DNA of 64,000 bases from Bacteroidota bacterium (GTDB lineage: Bacteria > Bacteroidota > Bacteroidia > Flavobacteriales_E > Vicingaceae), in the NCBI GenBank assembly GCA_013112545.1, contig JABFGJ010000008.1:1-64000 (forward strand), read 5' to 3'. Position numbers and translations under genes: made by a program. Each line of letters starts with the position of its first letter. The stretch's first letter is position 1. The notes below the pieces were generated by a model. The model was not told the DNA's origin, made no database searches, and was given only the letters and a program-made list of their open reading frames with translations. This document shows, in pieces, positions 44,908 to 52,408 of the stretch.

Positions 44908-45348
44908 TTGACTGAAAACAAAGACATAGAAGCAAAAGACATTTTATCAAAATTTAAAATAACTAAGAAACTAGATTATGCTACCATATATCGGCATAAA
45001 AGTAGAAATATAGTTATGGTAAAATACTCTAATTCTAGCATAATTGATATTGCTAATGCAGTTGAAATCTCTAAAAATTCTCAATTTGCTGCTGATCTAA
45101 ATAGACCAGTATTTGCCTTAACTGTACCAGGACAATATTCTGAGATAACTTCTGAAGCAAGAGAGTTTTTCGGAAAAGACCATTTCAATCAAATAGTAAT
45201 ACAAGCTACTGCAATAATTATTAAAGACTTAACTCATCGCATAACTTTTAATTTGTATTTAAAATTCAATAAACCGATATCCCCAATTATTGCTTTCAAG
45301 TCTATACCTGAAGCATATAATTGGCTCATTGACAAAGGAGCGAAATAA
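44908..45348 (+). CDS. SpoIIAA/STAS-like small protein, paralogue 1 of 3
   Basis: The 146-residue soluble protein ends ATAIIIKDLTHRITFNLYLK then FNKP, IAFKSIPEAYNWL. This C-terminal pattern I recall from the DUF7793/STAS-SEC14-like family of Bacteroidota. The start must be TTG, as no in-frame ATG precedes the conserved part. It shares its layout (N-terminal RHKSRNIVMVKYS strand, central helix, C-terminal FNKP motif) with the next two genes. The function of the family is unknown; STAS-like domains often act as phospho-regulated binding modules. Confidence 0.72.
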   Translation: MTENKDIEAKDILSKFKITKKLDYATIYRHKSRNIVMVKYSNSSIIDIANAVEISKNSQFAADLNRPVFALTVPGQYSEITSEAREFFGKDHFNQIVIQATAIIIKDLTHRITFNLYLKFNKPISPIIAFKSIPEAYNWLIDKGAK

Positions 45349-45426
45349 TTTTTTATTTAACAAATGACTATCAATTTGTGTCAGTTCATTTACTAATTTA
45401 GATACTCTAATAAACTTAATTTTAAA

Positions 45427-45870
45427 TTGAGCATTTATCCCAACTTTAAACTTTGTAAAACATTTCCATATGGAAGTATATACAAGCATGATACAAGAAA
45501 TATTGCGATGGTCGTTTATGCTGTAGATGCAACTATAGACCTTGAGGAAGCTCAACAAATTGTACAAGAAGTAAAAAGTATAGTCGATATAAATAAAAAT
45601 TTATTTGGCGTAACAATGACTTTAAAGGGCTCTACAGCTACTGAAAAAGCCAGAAACTTCTTTGCAAATGATAAATTTAGCCAAGAAATTACAAAAGCAA
45701 TGGCCTTGGTAATTCACCAATTACCACAAAGATTAATGCTTAAAATATATTTAAAGTTTAACAAACCCAAATCCCCTATAAAAGCTTTTAAGTCATTATC
45801 TAGCGCCATGAATTGGATAAATACAATAGAACATAGCTTAATCAAGGAGCATGATGAAATCTACTCATAA
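45427..45870 (+). CDS. SpoIIAA/STAS-like small protein, paralogue 2 of 3
   Basis: The 147 residues align with the preceding protein: KHDTRNIAMVVYA, a middle EKARNFFANDKFSQEITKAM and the ending LVIHQLPQRLMLKIYLKFNKP then AFKSLSSAMNWI. The start is TTG; homology with paralogue 1 begins right after it, which supports this choice. It lies 78 bp after paralogue 1 and overlaps paralogue 3 by 20 bp, so the three are probably one transcript. Confidence 0.72.
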   Translation: MSIYPNFKLCKTFPYGSIYKHDTRNIAMVVYAVDATIDLEEAQQIVQEVKSIVDINKNLFGVTMTLKGSTATEKARNFFANDKFSQEITKAMALVIHQLPQRLMLKIYLKFNKPKSPIKAFKSLSSAMNWINTIEHSLIKEHDEIYS

Positions 45871-46267
45871 TGCTTATAATCAAATAAAAGACCTTCCTTT
45901 TGCCGTGGTTTTAACACACAAAACCGAACCCATTATTTTAGTTAAATTTAAAGAAAACTCCTGCTTAGATTACAATGATGTATCTCAATTGGTAGAGTTG
46001 ATTTATATGCTTCTGAAGACTGACTTCCAGTTTATAATTTCAGATTGTAGCAGCAATTTCGAAAGCCTGGATAAAGAAACGTTAGATATTTTTAGCGATA
46101 ATATAAGTCTGCGCCAAGCAAAAGCTCATGGCTTAATTGTCAATGAATTACCTATGCGTTTAAAGACAACCTACTTTATACAACTTCAAGAAAATATAGT
46201 TCCAACAAAACTATTCTCAACAAATATAGAAGCCGAAAACTGGTTTAAAACTGAGTTTTTAAAATAA
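45851..46267 (+). CDS. SpoIIAA/STAS-like small protein, paralogue 3 of 3
   Basis: The 138 residues are more diverged but keep the layout: LTHKTEPIILVKFKENS, a central ETLDIFSDNISLRQAKAHG and the ending LIVNELPMRLKTTYFIQLQE then KLFSTNIEAENWF. The FNKP motif is replaced by QENIVP. It starts inside paralogue 2, at ATG 45851 or 45854; AAGGAG at 45844-45849 could serve the second ATG. It ends 2 bp before the convergent XRE gene. Confidence 0.68.
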   Translation: MMKSTHNAYNQIKDLPFAVVLTHKTEPIILVKFKENSCLDYNDVSQLVELIYMLLKTDFQFIISDCSSNFESLDKETLDIFSDNISLRQAKAHGLIVNELPMRLKTTYFIQLQENIVPTKLFSTNIEAENWFKTEFLK

Positions 46268-46269
46268 AG

Positions 46270-46677
46270 TTATGCATCGGAATTCGGGTTAAACTCCTCA
46301 AAGGTATTATCATCATAGAAAACTAATATTCGTGAAATTTTTCTAACCTTAGCGGATTTAAATTCCGGCTTTTCATCTATTTCTTCAGGTTTGCTTATGG
46401 TTTGATGACTTATACTTTGCACCGAATTGCTTTTTTCTTCAGGCAATTTCATTTTATCTTCAAGCGAAACAATATTAGTTGTACCTTCAATTAACCAAGT
46501 AGTATCAACCTTAGGAAATCTCTTTATTATTTTCTGAACAAACTCTAAACTTGGTTTATTTCTTCCAGATAATACATGAGAAACAGAAGATCTTTGCACA
46601 CCAATTTCATCCGCAAAAACTGAGGCACTCATTTGATTTAGTTTCATTATATACTGAATCCGCTCTACTAATTCCAT
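46270..46677 (-). CDS. XRE-family helix-turn-helix repressor
   Basis: The 135 residues carry an N-terminal HTH_3 domain (about 5-55: SASVFADEIGVQRSSVSHVLSGRNKPSLEFVQKI). A polar linker and a short C-terminal segment, VRKISRILVFYDDNTFEEF, follow. The latter resembles a beta-hairpin or dimerisation tail seen in Bacteroidota XRE proteins. Several TTACAnnTGTAA palindromes lie directly upstream of its start, so negative autoregulation is likely. It is convergent with the STAS-like paralogues. Confidence 0.9.
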   Translation of the reverse strand: MELVERIQYIMKLNQMSASVFADEIGVQRSSVSHVLSGRNKPSLEFVQKIIKRFPKVDTTWLIEGTTNIVSLEDKMKLPEEKSNSVQSISHQTISKPEEIDEKPEFKSAKVRKISRILVFYDDNTFEEFNPNSDA

Positions 46678-46689
46678 TTGATCTATTTC

Positions 46690-46967
46690 TTACATTTGTA
46701 AACAACTGCGTATTTTACAAATGTAATATTAATTGAATAGTTTTGTAAATTACAAATGTAAAAAATATAAACATTCTATATTTAAAAACATTTCAATTAA
46801 AGCACTACTACATTTAATCTTTATTGCGTCTTGATTTATAAGTAGATAACGCATAAACACTATTTACTTTGTAAATCGAGTTTACATTTGTAATATACGA
46901 ACTTCGTTTTTCTAAGTTTAGGTGAATTGACTTGCTGTTTACAATTGTATTTTGATTACAATTGTAA
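46690..46967. promoter_or_regulatory. Array of TTACAnnTGTAA palindromes (candidate XRE operators)
   Basis: Five exact copies of TTACAnnTGTAA lie at 46690-46701, 46715-46726, 46750-46761, 46882-46893 and 46956-46967. A sixth with one mismatch lies at 46939-46950. The three on the left sit within 85 bp of the XRE start codon; the two on the right abut the end of the outer-membrane gene. The central two bases vary (TT, AA, AT) while both half-sites are kept, as expected for binding by an HTH dimer. This array fills the 296-bp gap 46678-46973. That the neighbouring XRE protein binds it is inference. Confidence 0.7.
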
Positions 46968-46973
46968 ACTAGA

Positions 46974-47768
46974 TTAATTATTTAAGCGAAAACTGACTCC
47001 CAAAGAATGATAATTCATAACCTGATTTATACCAAGGCCAAAAGAATAATCCAACTGTAAATTGTCATTTATTAAATAAGTCATCCCTAAATCTACATTC
47101 TGTTCCCAAGTCTTAAAATTTATATATTCTCCAAATGTTTCTATATATACTCCTACCCGATTAGAAATAGCTTGACCATAAACTAAAGTATAAGTTAAAT
47201 CTCCTACATTCTTGCTAAAAACCTCAGAACCGTTTACTATATAGCTAAAATTGTTATAGCCTATATTTGCTCCAACACATTGTTTTTCTGAAAGCTGATG
47301 AGAAATATTTAATCGGCTAACTAATCCATATTGCTGATAATTAGTTTTTTTGTTCTTAATGGGTATATCCAAATGAGTCATAAAACCTAAAATAGTTCTA
47401 GATTGATCTTGACTAAATTGATATTTAAACCCAAACTCAATATTTTCCATACCTGTGTTTTGAATTTTCTTTTCATTAGACTTTTTATCATATACCGTAT
47501 TGCTCATATATTCTGTTACCAGCCTTAATTCTAATCTATTAGCTATACCATACCTAATTAGATTACTAGGATGCGCAATCTGTTCTTCGGATTTAGTTTT
47601 AGATAAGTCTGAGCGTTGAAATTGAAACCCACTTTCTATTTGAATAACACCTATGGCAACTGCATTTGGCGATTCCGTTTGGTCTGGACGATCTGTAATC
47701 AACGAATTCTGCGCTGTAACAATATGGCTTGATAGGGAGATTAATATAAAACAAGATAATATTTTCAT
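46974..47768 (-). CDS. Outer-membrane beta-barrel protein (transporter/MetA-degradation-type)
   Basis: About 264 residues with a signal peptide (MKILSCFILISLSSHIVTAQ). TDRPDQTESPNAVAIGVIQIESGFQF is the common opening of a family often annotated as putative outer-membrane transporter (PF13557-like). Alternating strands run to the end (SLGVSFRLNN). The ATG at 47768 is preferred over an extension to 47789 that would reach into the palindrome region. It diverges from the DtxR-family regulator and may share its metal-dependent operator. Confidence 0.78.
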   Translation of the reverse strand: MKILSCFILISLSSHIVTAQNSLITDRPDQTESPNAVAIGVIQIESGFQFQRSDLSKTKSEEQIAHPSNLIRYGIANRLELRLVTEYMSNTVYDKKSNEKKIQNTGMENIEFGFKYQFSQDQSRTILGFMTHLDIPIKNKKTNYQQYGLVSRLNISHQLSEKQCVGANIGYNNFSYIVNGSEVFSKNVGDLTYTLVYGQAISNRVGVYIETFGEYINFKTWEQNVDLGMTYLINDNLQLDYSFGLGINQVMNYHSLGVSFRLNN

Positions 47769-47791
47769 TTTTTTATGCAAAAAAAACATAA

Positions 47792-47854: not shown

Positions 47855-48517
47855 ATGTTAAGTTTTACAGAAGAGAATTACTTAAAAGCCATTTTTAGCA
47901 TAAATGAACATCATGACAATGCAGCCTCTACAAATGCAATTGCTGAAAGATTAAATACTAAGGCGGCTTCAGTTTCAGATATGCTCAAAAAGCTAAAGGA
48001 AAAAAAATTGATAAATTATCAAAAATACAAAGCAGTAACACTAACTGAATCAGGTAGTTCAATTGCAATCTCTATCATTAGAAAACATCGTTTATGGGAG
48101 TTTTTCTTAGTTGAAAAATTACATTTTAGTTGGGATGCGGTTCATGATATCGCTGAGCAACTCGAACACATTCAATCTAAAGAACTCACAAATAAGCTTG
48201 ATGAATTTTTAGGTTTTCCAGAATTTGACCCTCATGGAGACCCTATTCCGAATAAGGATGGTGATTTCCCTTTAAAATTAGATAAAACCTTAGTTGGAAT
48301 TAAGACAGACCAAAAAGCAAAGGTTTTAGGTGTAAAAGATCACTCTACGGAGTTTTTGACATATTTAACAGATTTGGGAATAAGCTTAGGAACTTTAATC
48401 CGTGTTCATAAAATTAATGCATACGACAAGTCTTTAGAAATTTATATAAATGACAAACCAGCAAGTATTTCAAATACTGTTGCACAGAATTTATTTGTTA
48501 AACTTATATCGGAATAA
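47855..48517 (+). CDS. DtxR/MntR-family metal-dependent repressor
   Basis: The 220 residues have an N-terminal winged helix (about 1-65: AIAERLNTKAASVSDMLKKLKEKKLI). The metal-binding dimerisation domain contains RKHRLWEFFLVEKLHFSWDAVHDIAEQLEHI and the family motif FDPHGDPIP. A C-terminal FeoA/SH3-like domain follows (about 145-220). It should repress metal uptake when Mn2+ or Fe2+ is plentiful. Its stop overlaps the binding-protein ATG by one base, making it the first gene of the transporter operon. Confidence 0.92.
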   Translation: MLSFTEENYLKAIFSINEHHDNAASTNAIAERLNTKAASVSDMLKKLKEKKLINYQKYKAVTLTESGSSIAISIIRKHRLWEFFLVEKLHFSWDAVHDIAEQLEHIQSKELTNKLDEFLGFPEFDPHGDPIPNKDGDFPLKLDKTLVGIKTDQKAKVLGVKDHSTEFLTYLTDLGISLGTLIRVHKINAYDKSLEIYINDKPASISNTVAQNLFVKLISE

Positions 48518-49425
48518 TGAAAGCGTATTTATTAATTTTTACTTCCTTGTTTTTTTTAGCATGCAATACAGCTATCCATGACAAAACTCAAAAAAAAGTA
48601 ATTGTTTGCACAACAGGTATGCTTGGCGATGCTGTAGAAAACATTGTGAAAGACAATTTTGAGGTAATCACTTTAATGGGTGCAGGAGTTGATCCACATT
48701 TATACAAAGCAACACATGGTGATATTAGTGCCTTAAGTAAAGCAGATATCATCATATACAATGGCCTGCACCTAGAAGGAAAAATGGGTGAAATTTTTCA
48801 AAAATTAGCCAATCGAAAAAAAATTATAGTAGCTTCAGATGCCATATCCCCATCTAAACTTATTAATAATACTGACTTTGCTGGAGCTACCGACCCTCAT
48901 ATCTGGTTTGACGTAGAATTGTGGTCTGAAGTGGTTTTATATCTTGGGAATCAAATTGGAGATTACTACCCAGAATATAAAGAAGAGCTTAACAAAAACA
49001 CCAAAGACTACCATCAATCGTTGCTTGATTTAAATATGCAATTATTGAAAACGATTAACTCATTAGATAGTAGCAAGCGTATTCTAATTACTGCTCATGA
49101 TGCATTTGGCTATTTTGGAAGAGCATATAGTTTTCAAGTAAAAGGTTTACAAGGTATTTCAACAGTTTCTGAATATGGTTTAAAAGACGTAAGTAACCTT
49201 GTTAAATATATTTCAGAACATAAGATTAAAGCCGTATTTGTTGAAAGTTCAGTGTCTGATCGCTCTTTAAAAGCAGTTGTAGAAGGCTGTAAATCAAATG
49301 GACATCAGGTAAAAATAGGTGGAACACTTTATAGTGACGCAATGGGTGAATCAAATACTCCGGAAGGTACATATATAGGCATGCTAAGTTATAATGTAAA
49401 TACCATAGTCAATAATTTAAAATGA
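48517..49425 (+). CDS. Metal ABC transporter substrate-binding lipoprotein (ZnuA/MntA/TroA family)
   Basis: The 302-residue cluster A-I binding protein has a lipobox Cys at 16 (FFLAC). The ligand motifs are GVDPHLYK, DPHIWFD, FVESSVSD and YSDAMG, a His-His-Glu-Asp set. The Glu in FVESS resembles Mn2+-binding PsaA, so Mn2+ is my first guess, with Zn2+ possible. It lacks the His-rich loop of typical ZnuA. It captures metal in the periplasm for the following ATPase and permeases. Confidence 0.92.
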   Translation: MKAYLLIFTSLFFLACNTAIHDKTQKKVIVCTTGMLGDAVENIVKDNFEVITLMGAGVDPHLYKATHGDISALSKADIIIYNGLHLEGKMGEIFQKLANRKKIIVASDAISPSKLINNTDFAGATDPHIWFDVELWSEVVLYLGNQIGDYYPEYKEELNKNTKDYHQSLLDLNMQLLKTINSLDSSKRILITAHDAFGYFGRAYSFQVKGLQGISTVSEYGLKDVSNLVKYISEHKIKAVFVESSVSDRSLKAVVEGCKSNGHQVKIGGTLYSDAMGESNTPEGTYIGMLSYNVNTIVNNLK

Positions 49426-49458
49426 TAAATCCTAAAACAATCATCGAAAAAACTAAAC

Positions 49459-50235
49459 ATGGAAGTAGCACTTGAAACACATAATCTTACTGTAAGTTAC
49501 AATCGAAGACCGGTACTGTGGAACATTGACTTTAAAATACCTGTAGGTCAAATTACTGGTATTATAGGCCCAAATGGATCGGGGAAAACGACTTTACTAA
49601 AAGCCATTATGGGTTTAGTAAAGCCTAGCAGTGGCTATTGTAAACTTTTCGATCAAGATTTAAAACAAGTTCGAGAACGCATTAGTTATGTTCCTCAAAG
49701 AGAATCTGTAGATTGGGATTTTCCTGCTTCTGTGATGGATATCGTTTTAATGGGAAGATATAAAAGCTCCAATCTTTTTAAACGAATAAATCAAAGCGAT
49801 CGAGACATTGCCGTTGAAGCATTAGAGAAAGTGAATATGCTAGAATTTAGCAACCGCCAAATCAGTCAACTTTCTGGAGGCCAACAACAACGTGTTTTTA
49901 TTGCGCGATCATTAGCCCAAGGAGCAGATTTATACATCATGGATGAGCCCTTTGTAGGTGTTGATGCAGCTACAGAAGAAGCCATTTTAAATTTGCTAAC
50001 CGAAATGAAAAATCAAGGAAAAACAGTGATTGTAGTGCATCATGATTTACAAACTGCCAAAGATTATTTCGATTGGATTGTATTATTAAATACTCGACTG
50101 GTTGCCGTTGGACCTAAAGATGACATATTTAGAGAGGATTTATTACAAGAAGCTTATGGTGGAAAGTTAAATGTATTGAGTAAAGTAGGTGACTTAATTA
50201 AAGAAAAAGGTTTTTCAGTTAGAGAAAGGAAATAA
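49459..50235 (+). CDS. Metal ABC transporter ATP-binding protein
   Basis: The 258-residue ABC ATPase has Walker A GPNGSGKT, signature LSGGQQQRVFIARSLAQ, Walker B LYIMDEPFVGVD and switch His in VIVVHHD. It is of the Mn/Zn/Fe type (RRPVLWNIDFKIPVGQ; WDFPASVMDIVLMGRY). It overlaps the fused permease gene by one base. Confidence 0.95.
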   Translation: MEVALETHNLTVSYNRRPVLWNIDFKIPVGQITGIIGPNGSGKTTLLKAIMGLVKPSSGYCKLFDQDLKQVRERISYVPQRESVDWDFPASVMDIVLMGRYKSSNLFKRINQSDRDIAVEALEKVNMLEFSNRQISQLSGGQQQRVFIARSLAQGADLYIMDEPFVGVDAATEEAILNLLTEMKNQGKTVIVVHHDLQTAKDYFDWIVLLNTRLVAVGPKDDIFREDLLQEAYGGKLNVLSKVGDLIKEKGFSVRERK

Positions 50236-51530
50236 TGAACGATTTACTTCAATTTCTTAGCTTTTCTGATCCCAATGTTCGCTTTGTTACAATTGGAACT
50301 ATGATACTTGGAGCAACTGCTGCCATGGTAGGTTCATTCTCATTTTTGAGAAAAAAAGCATTGGTTGGAGATGCAATTGCCCACTCAATTCTGCCAGGCG
50401 TTTGTTTGGCTTTTATGCTGTCGGGTAGCAAAGATCCATTGGTACTAATTGTTGGTGCATTTATTACAGGTTGGCTTTCGCTAATCATTATTGATGGAAT
50501 TAGCAGAACTACTAAATTGAAAAATGATGCAGCTATTGGCATTGTTTTAAGTGTGTTTTTTGGCTTTGGAATTTTACTGCTTACATCTATACAACAATCC
50601 GGAAATGCAGCACAGTCAGGTTTAGATAAATTTCTTTTTGGAAAAGCAGCATCTTTAACTCAATATGACATACTAGTTTTTTCAAGCATAGGCATAGTCT
50701 TAATTTTAGTGCTATTGTTATTCTATAAAGAATTTAAGCTCATTTCATTTAATCCAGATTATGCAAAAGTGATAGGTTTGCCTGTAAAATTTCTGGAATT
50801 TATTCTAGCTACAATTACTGTACTTGCAGTAGCTGTTGGCATTCAAGCGGTGGGTGTTGTTTTAATGGCCGCATTGTTAATTACCCCTGCTTCTGGTGCT
50901 CGTTTTTGGACGCATCGTTTGGGCACTATGATTTTTATAGCCATGGTTTTTGGTGCAATTTCAGGCTTTTTTGGCTCATTCATTAGCTACGTTGCTCCAA
51001 GCATGCCAACAGGGCCTTGGGTTGTAATGTGTTTATCTTTTTTAACCATCGGTTCAATCTGGTTTGCTCCCAAAAGAGGCATGTTGGCCAAATACCGAGT
51101 TCAACATCAAAACCAGCAAAAAATACTTAAGGAAAATGTATTAAAATTATTTTATCACATTGGTGAAAAAGAAAATGATTTTCACGCTGAGCGCAGCATT
51201 GAACAATTATTAAAAACAAGGGATTTGAGGCCCACTGAACTTAAAAAAGGACTTCATTTACTGAAATCTGAAAACACAGTTCGAAATAAAGATGATAAAT
51301 GGCTCATTACCGCTAAAGGACTAAACGAAGCAATTCGGATAATTCGATTGCATCGATTATGGGAAATGTATTTAAATCAACGACTTAAATTAGAGCCTGA
51401 TCATGTTCATAATGATGCCGAAGCAATTGAGCACATCATTACTCCTGAAATTGAAAGACAATTGGAAAAGGAATTAAATTATCCTACAAAAGATCCTCAT
51501 CAAAGTATAATACCATATATAAAAGAATAA
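50235..51530 (+). CDS. Metal ABC permease fused to a DtxR-like domain
   Basis: The 431-residue protein has a normal ABC-3 permease over about 1-290, with eight to nine helices and motifs such as KKALVGDAIAHSILPGVCLAF and GVVLMAALLITPASGARFWT. It continues with a cytoplasmic ~130-residue tail. This tail contains a winged-helix-like segment and RIIRLHRLWEMYLNQRLKLEPDHVHNDAEAIEHI, clearly homologous to the metal-binding domain of the operon's own DtxR-family regulator, and ends DPHQSIIP. The fusion occurs in other Bacteroidota as far as I recall. The tail may sense metal to gate transport or compete with the regulator. Confidence 0.92.
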   Translation: MNDLLQFLSFSDPNVRFVTIGTMILGATAAMVGSFSFLRKKALVGDAIAHSILPGVCLAFMLSGSKDPLVLIVGAFITGWLSLIIIDGISRTTKLKNDAAIGIVLSVFFGFGILLLTSIQQSGNAAQSGLDKFLFGKAASLTQYDILVFSSIGIVLILVLLLFYKEFKLISFNPDYAKVIGLPVKFLEFILATITVLAVAVGIQAVGVVLMAALLITPASGARFWTHRLGTMIFIAMVFGAISGFFGSFISYVAPSMPTGPWVVMCLSFLTIGSIWFAPKRGMLAKYRVQHQNQQKILKENVLKLFYHIGEKENDFHAERSIEQLLKTRDLRPTELKKGLHLLKSENTVRNKDDKWLITAKGLNEAIRIIRLHRLWEMYLNQRLKLEPDHVHNDAEAIEHIITPEIERQLEKELNYPTKDPHQSIIPYIKE

Positions 51531-52408
51531 TGGATGCGTTTTGGATTATATTAAGCAGTTCTTTAATTGCAGTTACTTGTAGCTTATTAGGTTGTTATTT
51601 GGTTTTACGAAAAATGGCCATGATTGGCGATGCTATTTCGCATGCTGTCTTGCCTGGAATTGTAATCGCCTATTTAATTTCAGGATCTAGAGAAGCTTTG
51701 CCCATGCTTATTGGAGCAGCGATTATCGGTGTTTTCACAACGGTGTTAATCGAACTATTCTATAAAAAAGCAAAACTTCAAATAGATGCTTCTATTGGCA
51801 TCACCTTTACTTGGTTATTCGCAATTGGCATTATCTTAATCTCACTTTTTGCAGGCCAAGTAGATTTAGACCAAGACTGTGTTCTGTACGGTGAAATAGC
51901 TTACGTTCCTTTAGATTTATGGATTACAGATGCAGGTGTTAATATGGGGCCAAGAACCGTTTGGATTAGCGCCTCATTGCTTATTTTGATTTTAAGTTTT
52001 ATCATTATTGGCTACAAAGGATTGTTTTTAACCACCTTTAATGAAGAGTTTGCAAAAGCATTAGGTATTGCAGTAGGCTTTTGGCATTATTCCTTAATGA
52101 GCGCAGTATCATTAACAACAGTAATATCATTTGAATCTGTAGGAGCTATATTGGTTGTAGCTTTTTTAATCGTGCCTGCATCTGCAGCATACCTTATAAC
52201 TCACAAGCTAAAAGAAATGCTAATTCTTTCAGCTATATTTAGTGTTTTAAGTTCAATTGGAGGATATTACTTAGCTGCCTATATTAATGGCTCTATTGCA
52301 GGTGCTATAGCAAGTGTTGCTGGCATCCTCTTTTTATTCTGTTGGTTAATTTCTATGTACAGAAAAAGAAACAACACTTCAAGACTTATACTTAATTCTA
52401 CATCTTAA
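51530..52408 (+). CDS. Metal ABC transporter permease
   Basis: The 292-residue ABC-3 family permease has about nine helices, with LRKMAMIGDAISHAVLPGIV and VGAILVVAFLIVPASAAYLI. It is paired with the preceding fused permease, presumably forming a heterodimeric channel. The start codon overlaps the previous stop. It is the last gene of the operon; no terminator hairpin was found behind it. Confidence 0.93.
   Translation: MDAFWIILSSSLIAVTCSLLGCYLVLRKMAMIGDAISHAVLPGIVIAYLISGSREALPMLIGAAIIGVFTTVLIELFYKKAKLQIDASIGITFTWLFAIGIILISLFAGQVDLDQDCVLYGEIAYVPLDLWITDAGVNMGPRTVWISASLLILILSFIIIGYKGLFLTTFNEEFAKALGIAVGFWHYSLMSAVSLTTVISFESVGAILVVAFLIVPASAAYLITHKLKEMLILSAIFSVLSSIGGYYLAAYINGSIAGAIASVAGILFLFCWLISMYRKRNNTSRLILNSTS

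Follow-up and report, generated by a model that had tools for sequence, protein, structure and literature searches.

The CI repressor of phage lambda combines an HTH_3 domain with a linker and a C-terminal part. It binds clustered operators at OL and OR, regulates its own gene, and closes a loop between the two clusters that spans kilobases and has no required bend site. The controller proteins of restriction-modification systems, which are also small and of the HTH_3 type, regulate their own genes through paired operators at the promoter. In the gal repressosome of Escherichia coli, which is made of GalR and HU, two operators lie about 11 helical turns apart with the HU site at the apex of the loop, and repression depends on the helical phase (PMC4693257). 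Here, we analysed a stretch of 64,000 nucleotides (the window) from a Bacteroidota bacterium of the Vicingaceae, which encodes an XRE repressor next to an array of short palindromes. Across flavobacteria, the spacing of these palindromes changes in whole helix turns, suggesting that the repressor limits its own production by looping the DNA. In the open-access papers searched, we came across no account of DNA looping by a repressor at this gene, nor of the two commonest forms of the motif or of the gene arrangement.

The XRE gene (46270-46677, minus strand) encodes a protein of 135 amino acids, which we characterised using Pfam, AlphaFold and Foldseek. The protein matches the HTH_3 profile (PF01381) with an E-value of 3.8e-9 and 36.9 bits, for a gathering score of 23. 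Its AlphaFold model has a five-helix domain, a disordered linker and a C-terminal beta hairpin, with pLDDT above 90 over the HTH. The best Foldseek matches were 434 Cro, DdrO, SinR, the 434 repressor and P22 c2, all with a probability of 1.00 but with E-values above 0.01 and sequence identities of 18-26 percent. The DNA-binding domains of these proteins have a fold like that of XRE, whereas their operators differ. The protein scored below the cut-offs of the NCBIfam models for the RstR phage repressor (NF041951, 27.2 bits for a cut-off of 80) and for the HigA antitoxin (TIGR02607, 19.8 bits for a cut-off of 47.7). Among its orthologues, the recognition helix region hardly varies in its residues, and neither does the motif.

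XRE is thus similar to lambda CI in its HTH_3 domain followed by a linker and a C-terminal part, in its clustered operators, and in the autoregulation and looping that we propose below. Unlike CI, it is encoded in the chromosome, we saw no phage genes around it, and its C-terminal part is only a short hairpin. Its likeness to the controller proteins is that of a small, putative HTH_3 autoregulator with operators at its own promoter, but no restriction-modification genes adjoin it and its operators form two distant clusters. The neighbours of XRE are DUF7793 genes, of which three are consecutive on the plus strand and convergent with it (44908-46267), and a gene encoding an outer-membrane protein (Pfam Phenol_MetA_deg, 46974-47789, minus strand). 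Beyond the latter, a gene for an MntR-type regulator is followed by apparent metal ABC-transporter genes (47855-52408), including a permease (50235-51530) that, by eye, seems to carry a second MntR-like domain at its end.

The intergenic stretch between the XRE gene and the stop codon of the outer-membrane gene is 296 bp long and holds six TTACAnnTGTAA sites. A six-site array had been proposed by the sequence-only reading of this DNA, and we confirmed it: the 278 bp between 46690 and 46967 contain five exact palindromes and one with a single mismatch. The proximal cluster consists of three exact operators, at -24 (46690-46701, downstream of the predicted transcription start), -49 (46715-46726, minus strand, hereafter the promoter site) and -84 (46750-46761) from the start codon. 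The distal cluster comprises an exact inner operator at -216 (46882-46893), 167 bp from the promoter site, one with a mismatch at -273 (46939-46950), and an exact outer operator at -290 (46956-46967), a few bases from the stop codon of the outer-membrane gene. A site-like palindrome that is one base shorter than the operators, TTACTTTGTAA, is found at 46864-46874, between the distal cluster and the gap element described below. A search with Rfam for non-coding RNA in the array gave only a weak match to snoZ101, below the gathering score and outside the array.

Allowing for up to one mismatch, TTACAnnTGTAA has 16 matches in the window (5.7 expected), a number reached in none of 100 shuffles. 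The 3.27-Mb genome has 10 exact sites (5 for the reversed-pattern control). Half of them are inside the array; the other five are all single, four in coding sequences and one intergenic. The motif is therefore not equally frequent elsewhere, an outcome that had been named beforehand as speaking against the array. Since the number of genomic matches with one mismatch (264) is near that of the control (237), the signal lies in the clustering of the sites, not in single sites.

The array accompanies the XRE gene. In the 328 bp upstream of 93 orthologous XRE genes we found 210 exact sites (2.26 per locus), against 10 in the 587 kb of flanking sequence (0.0056 per 328 bp) and a single match of the reversed pattern upstream of all 93 genes. 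At least one exact site is present at 81 of these loci, and the positions of the arrays are nearly constant, although some members have weak or rearranged arrays. Orthologues are present in most members of the source family, in 89 of the 395 genomes sampled from the class, and, within one flavobacterial family that is presumably the Flavobacteriaceae, in 30 of the 31 sampled genera. What lies on the far side of the array varies: the gene there encodes an M14 carboxypeptidase in most Flavobacteriaceae, and elsewhere TypA, an MntR-type or Lrp-type regulator, or a TonB-dependent receptor. Because the array is kept upstream of XRE orthologues while the next gene differs, we conclude that it belongs to XRE. 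Its assignment as the operator array of this gene, already made from the sequence of the window, is thus supported by its travelling with XRE across the order. Three genomes of the same family lacking a detected orthologue had no motif excess and no pairs of sites. Five relatives among the Bacteroidales also have arrays, several of them with longer distances between the clusters.

The three sites on the right had also been said to reach the outer-membrane gene. They do adjoin its 3' end in the window, and that of an outer-membrane gene in five relatives, but they do not serve it: we rejected the array as an operator of this gene because of its position at the 3' end and because the sites remain with XRE where the gene is absent.

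The sigma-A promoters of flavobacteria have a -7 box, TAnnTTTG, located between -12 and -5 from the transcription start (PMC9723704). The operator at -49 reads TACATTTG on the XRE strand (46718-46725, minus strand), which is a predicted box of this kind. This leads to a predicted transcription start near 46713. The centre of the promoter site is CATTTG in 56 of 61 loci (23 of 25 of the Vicingaceae type and 33 of 36 others), while most other sites vary. Hence, the variable centres noted earlier hold for most of the array, with the exception of this one site, whose TT centre on the XRE strand is fixed across relatives. Outside the Vicingaceae, 23 of 39 loci have a TTG 19-20 bp upstream; within this family we found no clear -33 TTG. 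As in autoregulators, an operator thus overlaps the predicted promoter of the gene itself, and it is the one with the fixed centre. In many Flavobacteriaceae loci, a near-operator, TTACAATGGTAA, overlaps the start codon of XRE (at -5 from the ATG), which may explain the conserved MVN start of the protein. We also considered whether the distal cluster has a -33 box of a divergent antisense promoter; this was unsupported, as we found no TTG at 19-20 bp.

The distribution of sites across loci is bimodal, with one cluster at about -5 to -95 and another at about -160 to -300 from the start codon, and only isolated matches in the gap between -170 and -95. Within clusters, spacings of 24/25 and 34/35 bp recur across loci, from which it is likely that adjacent sites are bound cooperatively. 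The distances between the promoter site and the inner distal site group near 158, 168, 179, 189 and 200 bp, with ranges of 156-160, 167-170, 176-180, 188-190 and 198-201 bp. In a scan of periods from 7 to 15 bp, the best was 10.5 bp (R 0.78; p<5e-5 on 21 distinct lengths, each used once). When each protein clade contributes a single value (16 clades), the phasing holds with p 0.0005. Phasing is also seen for the second distal site (on distinct lengths, p 0.0002), where the period is less exact, at 10.0 over all loci, whereas the outer distal site shows no clean 10.5 bp periodicity (best period 13.3).

We had noticed the phasing before testing it on this first set, and the loci share ancestry. 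A hold-out set, drawn from other genera of the flavobacterial family sampled above and tested with the period and phase already fixed on the first set, answers the prior noticing in part. The start codon could be placed for 23 of its 29 loci, seven of which had no promoter site at the threshold used. The inner distal site was phased in this set (p 0.003), which is small for this site (7 loci) and in which a few recurring lengths dominate, and so was the second (p 0.0005 on distinct lengths). As a control we used the distance from the promoter site to the ATG. When ancestry is ignored this distance is uneven (first set, p 0.008; hold-out, p 0.0005), which shows how far shared ancestry alone can mislead; it had no phasing per clade (p 0.17) or on distinct hold-out values (p 0.37). 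The two operator sets are thus in helical phase, as in gal-type looping.

Motif discovery in the gap gave a single element, WWTCARTnnnTTA followed by TTAnnTAAAGT (log-likelihood of 445, against about 115 in shuffles). The consensus of IHF is WATCARnnnnTTR. Exact matches to it are present in the gap of 30 of 97 loci (1.4 expected), mainly on the sense strand, with 3 on the opposite strand. The copy in the window (46801-46836, minus strand) is degenerate, has two mismatches to this consensus (AATCAAGACGCAA), and was placed by family alignment. Its distances to the promoter site (108 bp) and to the inner distal site (59 bp) are both common in relatives. Two full-length DNABII proteins are encoded in the genome; one resembles HU and the other is nearest to IHF-beta, and both score below the NCBIfam cut-offs for IHF and HU; we thus found no equivalogs of IHF alpha or beta in it. 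The density of sites had been read as a sign of cooperative binding or looping. Of the two, looping is now backed by the phasing and by a conserved bend-like element, while for cooperativity the recurring spacings make it likely only.

Taken together, the array, its linkage to XRE, the overlap with the -7 box, the gap element of the family and the phasing, all of which were computed, make it probable in our view that a repressor with the 434/SinR fold represses its own gene by looping two operator clusters around a bend. Within this model we infer the binding and repression by XRE, the loop, and the identity of the bending protein. The XRE protein would bind the TTACAnnTGTAA sites and repress its own gene. 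As the -7 box is one of the operators, XRE bound at -49 would exclude the RNA polymerase. Repressor dimers bound at -24, -49 and -84 in the proximal cluster would touch those bound at -216, -273 and -290 in the distal one. This would close a loop of about 170 bp, with a DNABII protein (IHF/HU-like) bending the DNA at the gap element. Such a loop would raise the local occupancy of the repressor and make autorepression steep and robust.

Three other readings of the locus have to be weighed against autorepression by looping. The clusters could be two separate operators that form no loop, the proximal one repressing XRE and the distal one a divergent promoter, that of the M14 peptidase in Flavobacteriaceae, the distal part of the array being a leftover in the window. 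The M14 carboxypeptidase gene does start divergently just past the distal cluster in most Flavobacteriaceae, and the centre of many distal sites would read as a -7 box on the opposite strand. Yet, we found no -33 TTG at 19-20 bp for this strand, and the peaks of CAA, at 16 and 26 bp, coincide with the neighbouring operators. Moreover, the distal sites are kept in the window and in the five other loci where the cluster adjoins the 3' end of an outer-membrane gene, and helical phasing is not expected without interaction. We regard this arrangement as unlikely.

It is rather improbable that the gap element is an activator site, or part of another promoter, with the XRE sites acting as a switch around it and the phasing reflecting the alignment of activator and polymerase. 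The element is longer than the core of an IHF site, since TTAnnTAAAGT follows, and about 90-110 bp separate it from the promoter site downstream, with which it is roughly in phase. However, its core agrees with the IHF consensus on one strand much more often than chance would predict, and the distal sites are also in phase with it. That the sites are owned by another regulator, XRE being merely the regulated gene, seems very improbable: they accompany XRE and not its neighbours, the near-invariance of its recognition helix region goes along with that of the motif, and the motif is not in excess in the genomes of the family where XRE was not detected.

The loop that we propose is similar to the gal repressosome in its paired operator sets and in their helical phase. 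Between these sets lies a putative bend site, whose consensus is enriched in the family and degenerate in the window. The proposed loop differs in the several-site clusters and in the IHF-type gap element. GalR belongs to the LacI family and controls a catabolic operon, whereas XRE is an HTH_3 protein, for which Pfam gives no LacI/GalR membership, and its target is its own gene. We do not claim that this is a gal system, because the family of the repressor, the target and probably the bend protein differ, but it would work like one.

We found no wider regulon in the genome of the window, where pairs of near-complete sites 8-38 bp apart occur at the XRE locus only. In relatives, paired sites are almost exclusively at XRE loci. 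Exact sites are above the control in Polaribacter glomeratus and Flavobacterium hungaricum (28 against 7 and 12), where the single sites examined are mixed between coding and intergenic sequences and have no recurring target. In three Polaribacter/Flavobacterium genomes exact sites were two to four times as numerous as the control, some of them intergenic. These genomes may have a wider regulon. It is conceivable, if somewhat doubtful, that a chromosomal repressor occurring in nearly every sampled genus (30 of 31) of one flavobacterial family, as well as in most genomes of the Vicingaceae type, keeps a phased looping apparatus mainly for self-control, without a recognisable wider regulon, and that evolution has changed the length of its loop by whole helical turns.

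The analysis provides a DNA motif, together with a presumed target, for a repressor found in nearly all sampled genera of one flavobacterial family. If the proposed loop is true, these loci would be a natural series of loops spread over many genera, with several of the allowed lengths explored by evolution. Comparisons between culturable strains, such as those of Flavobacterium and Polaribacter, would then allow tests of phase dependence, of bend assistance and of autoregulation through a loop.
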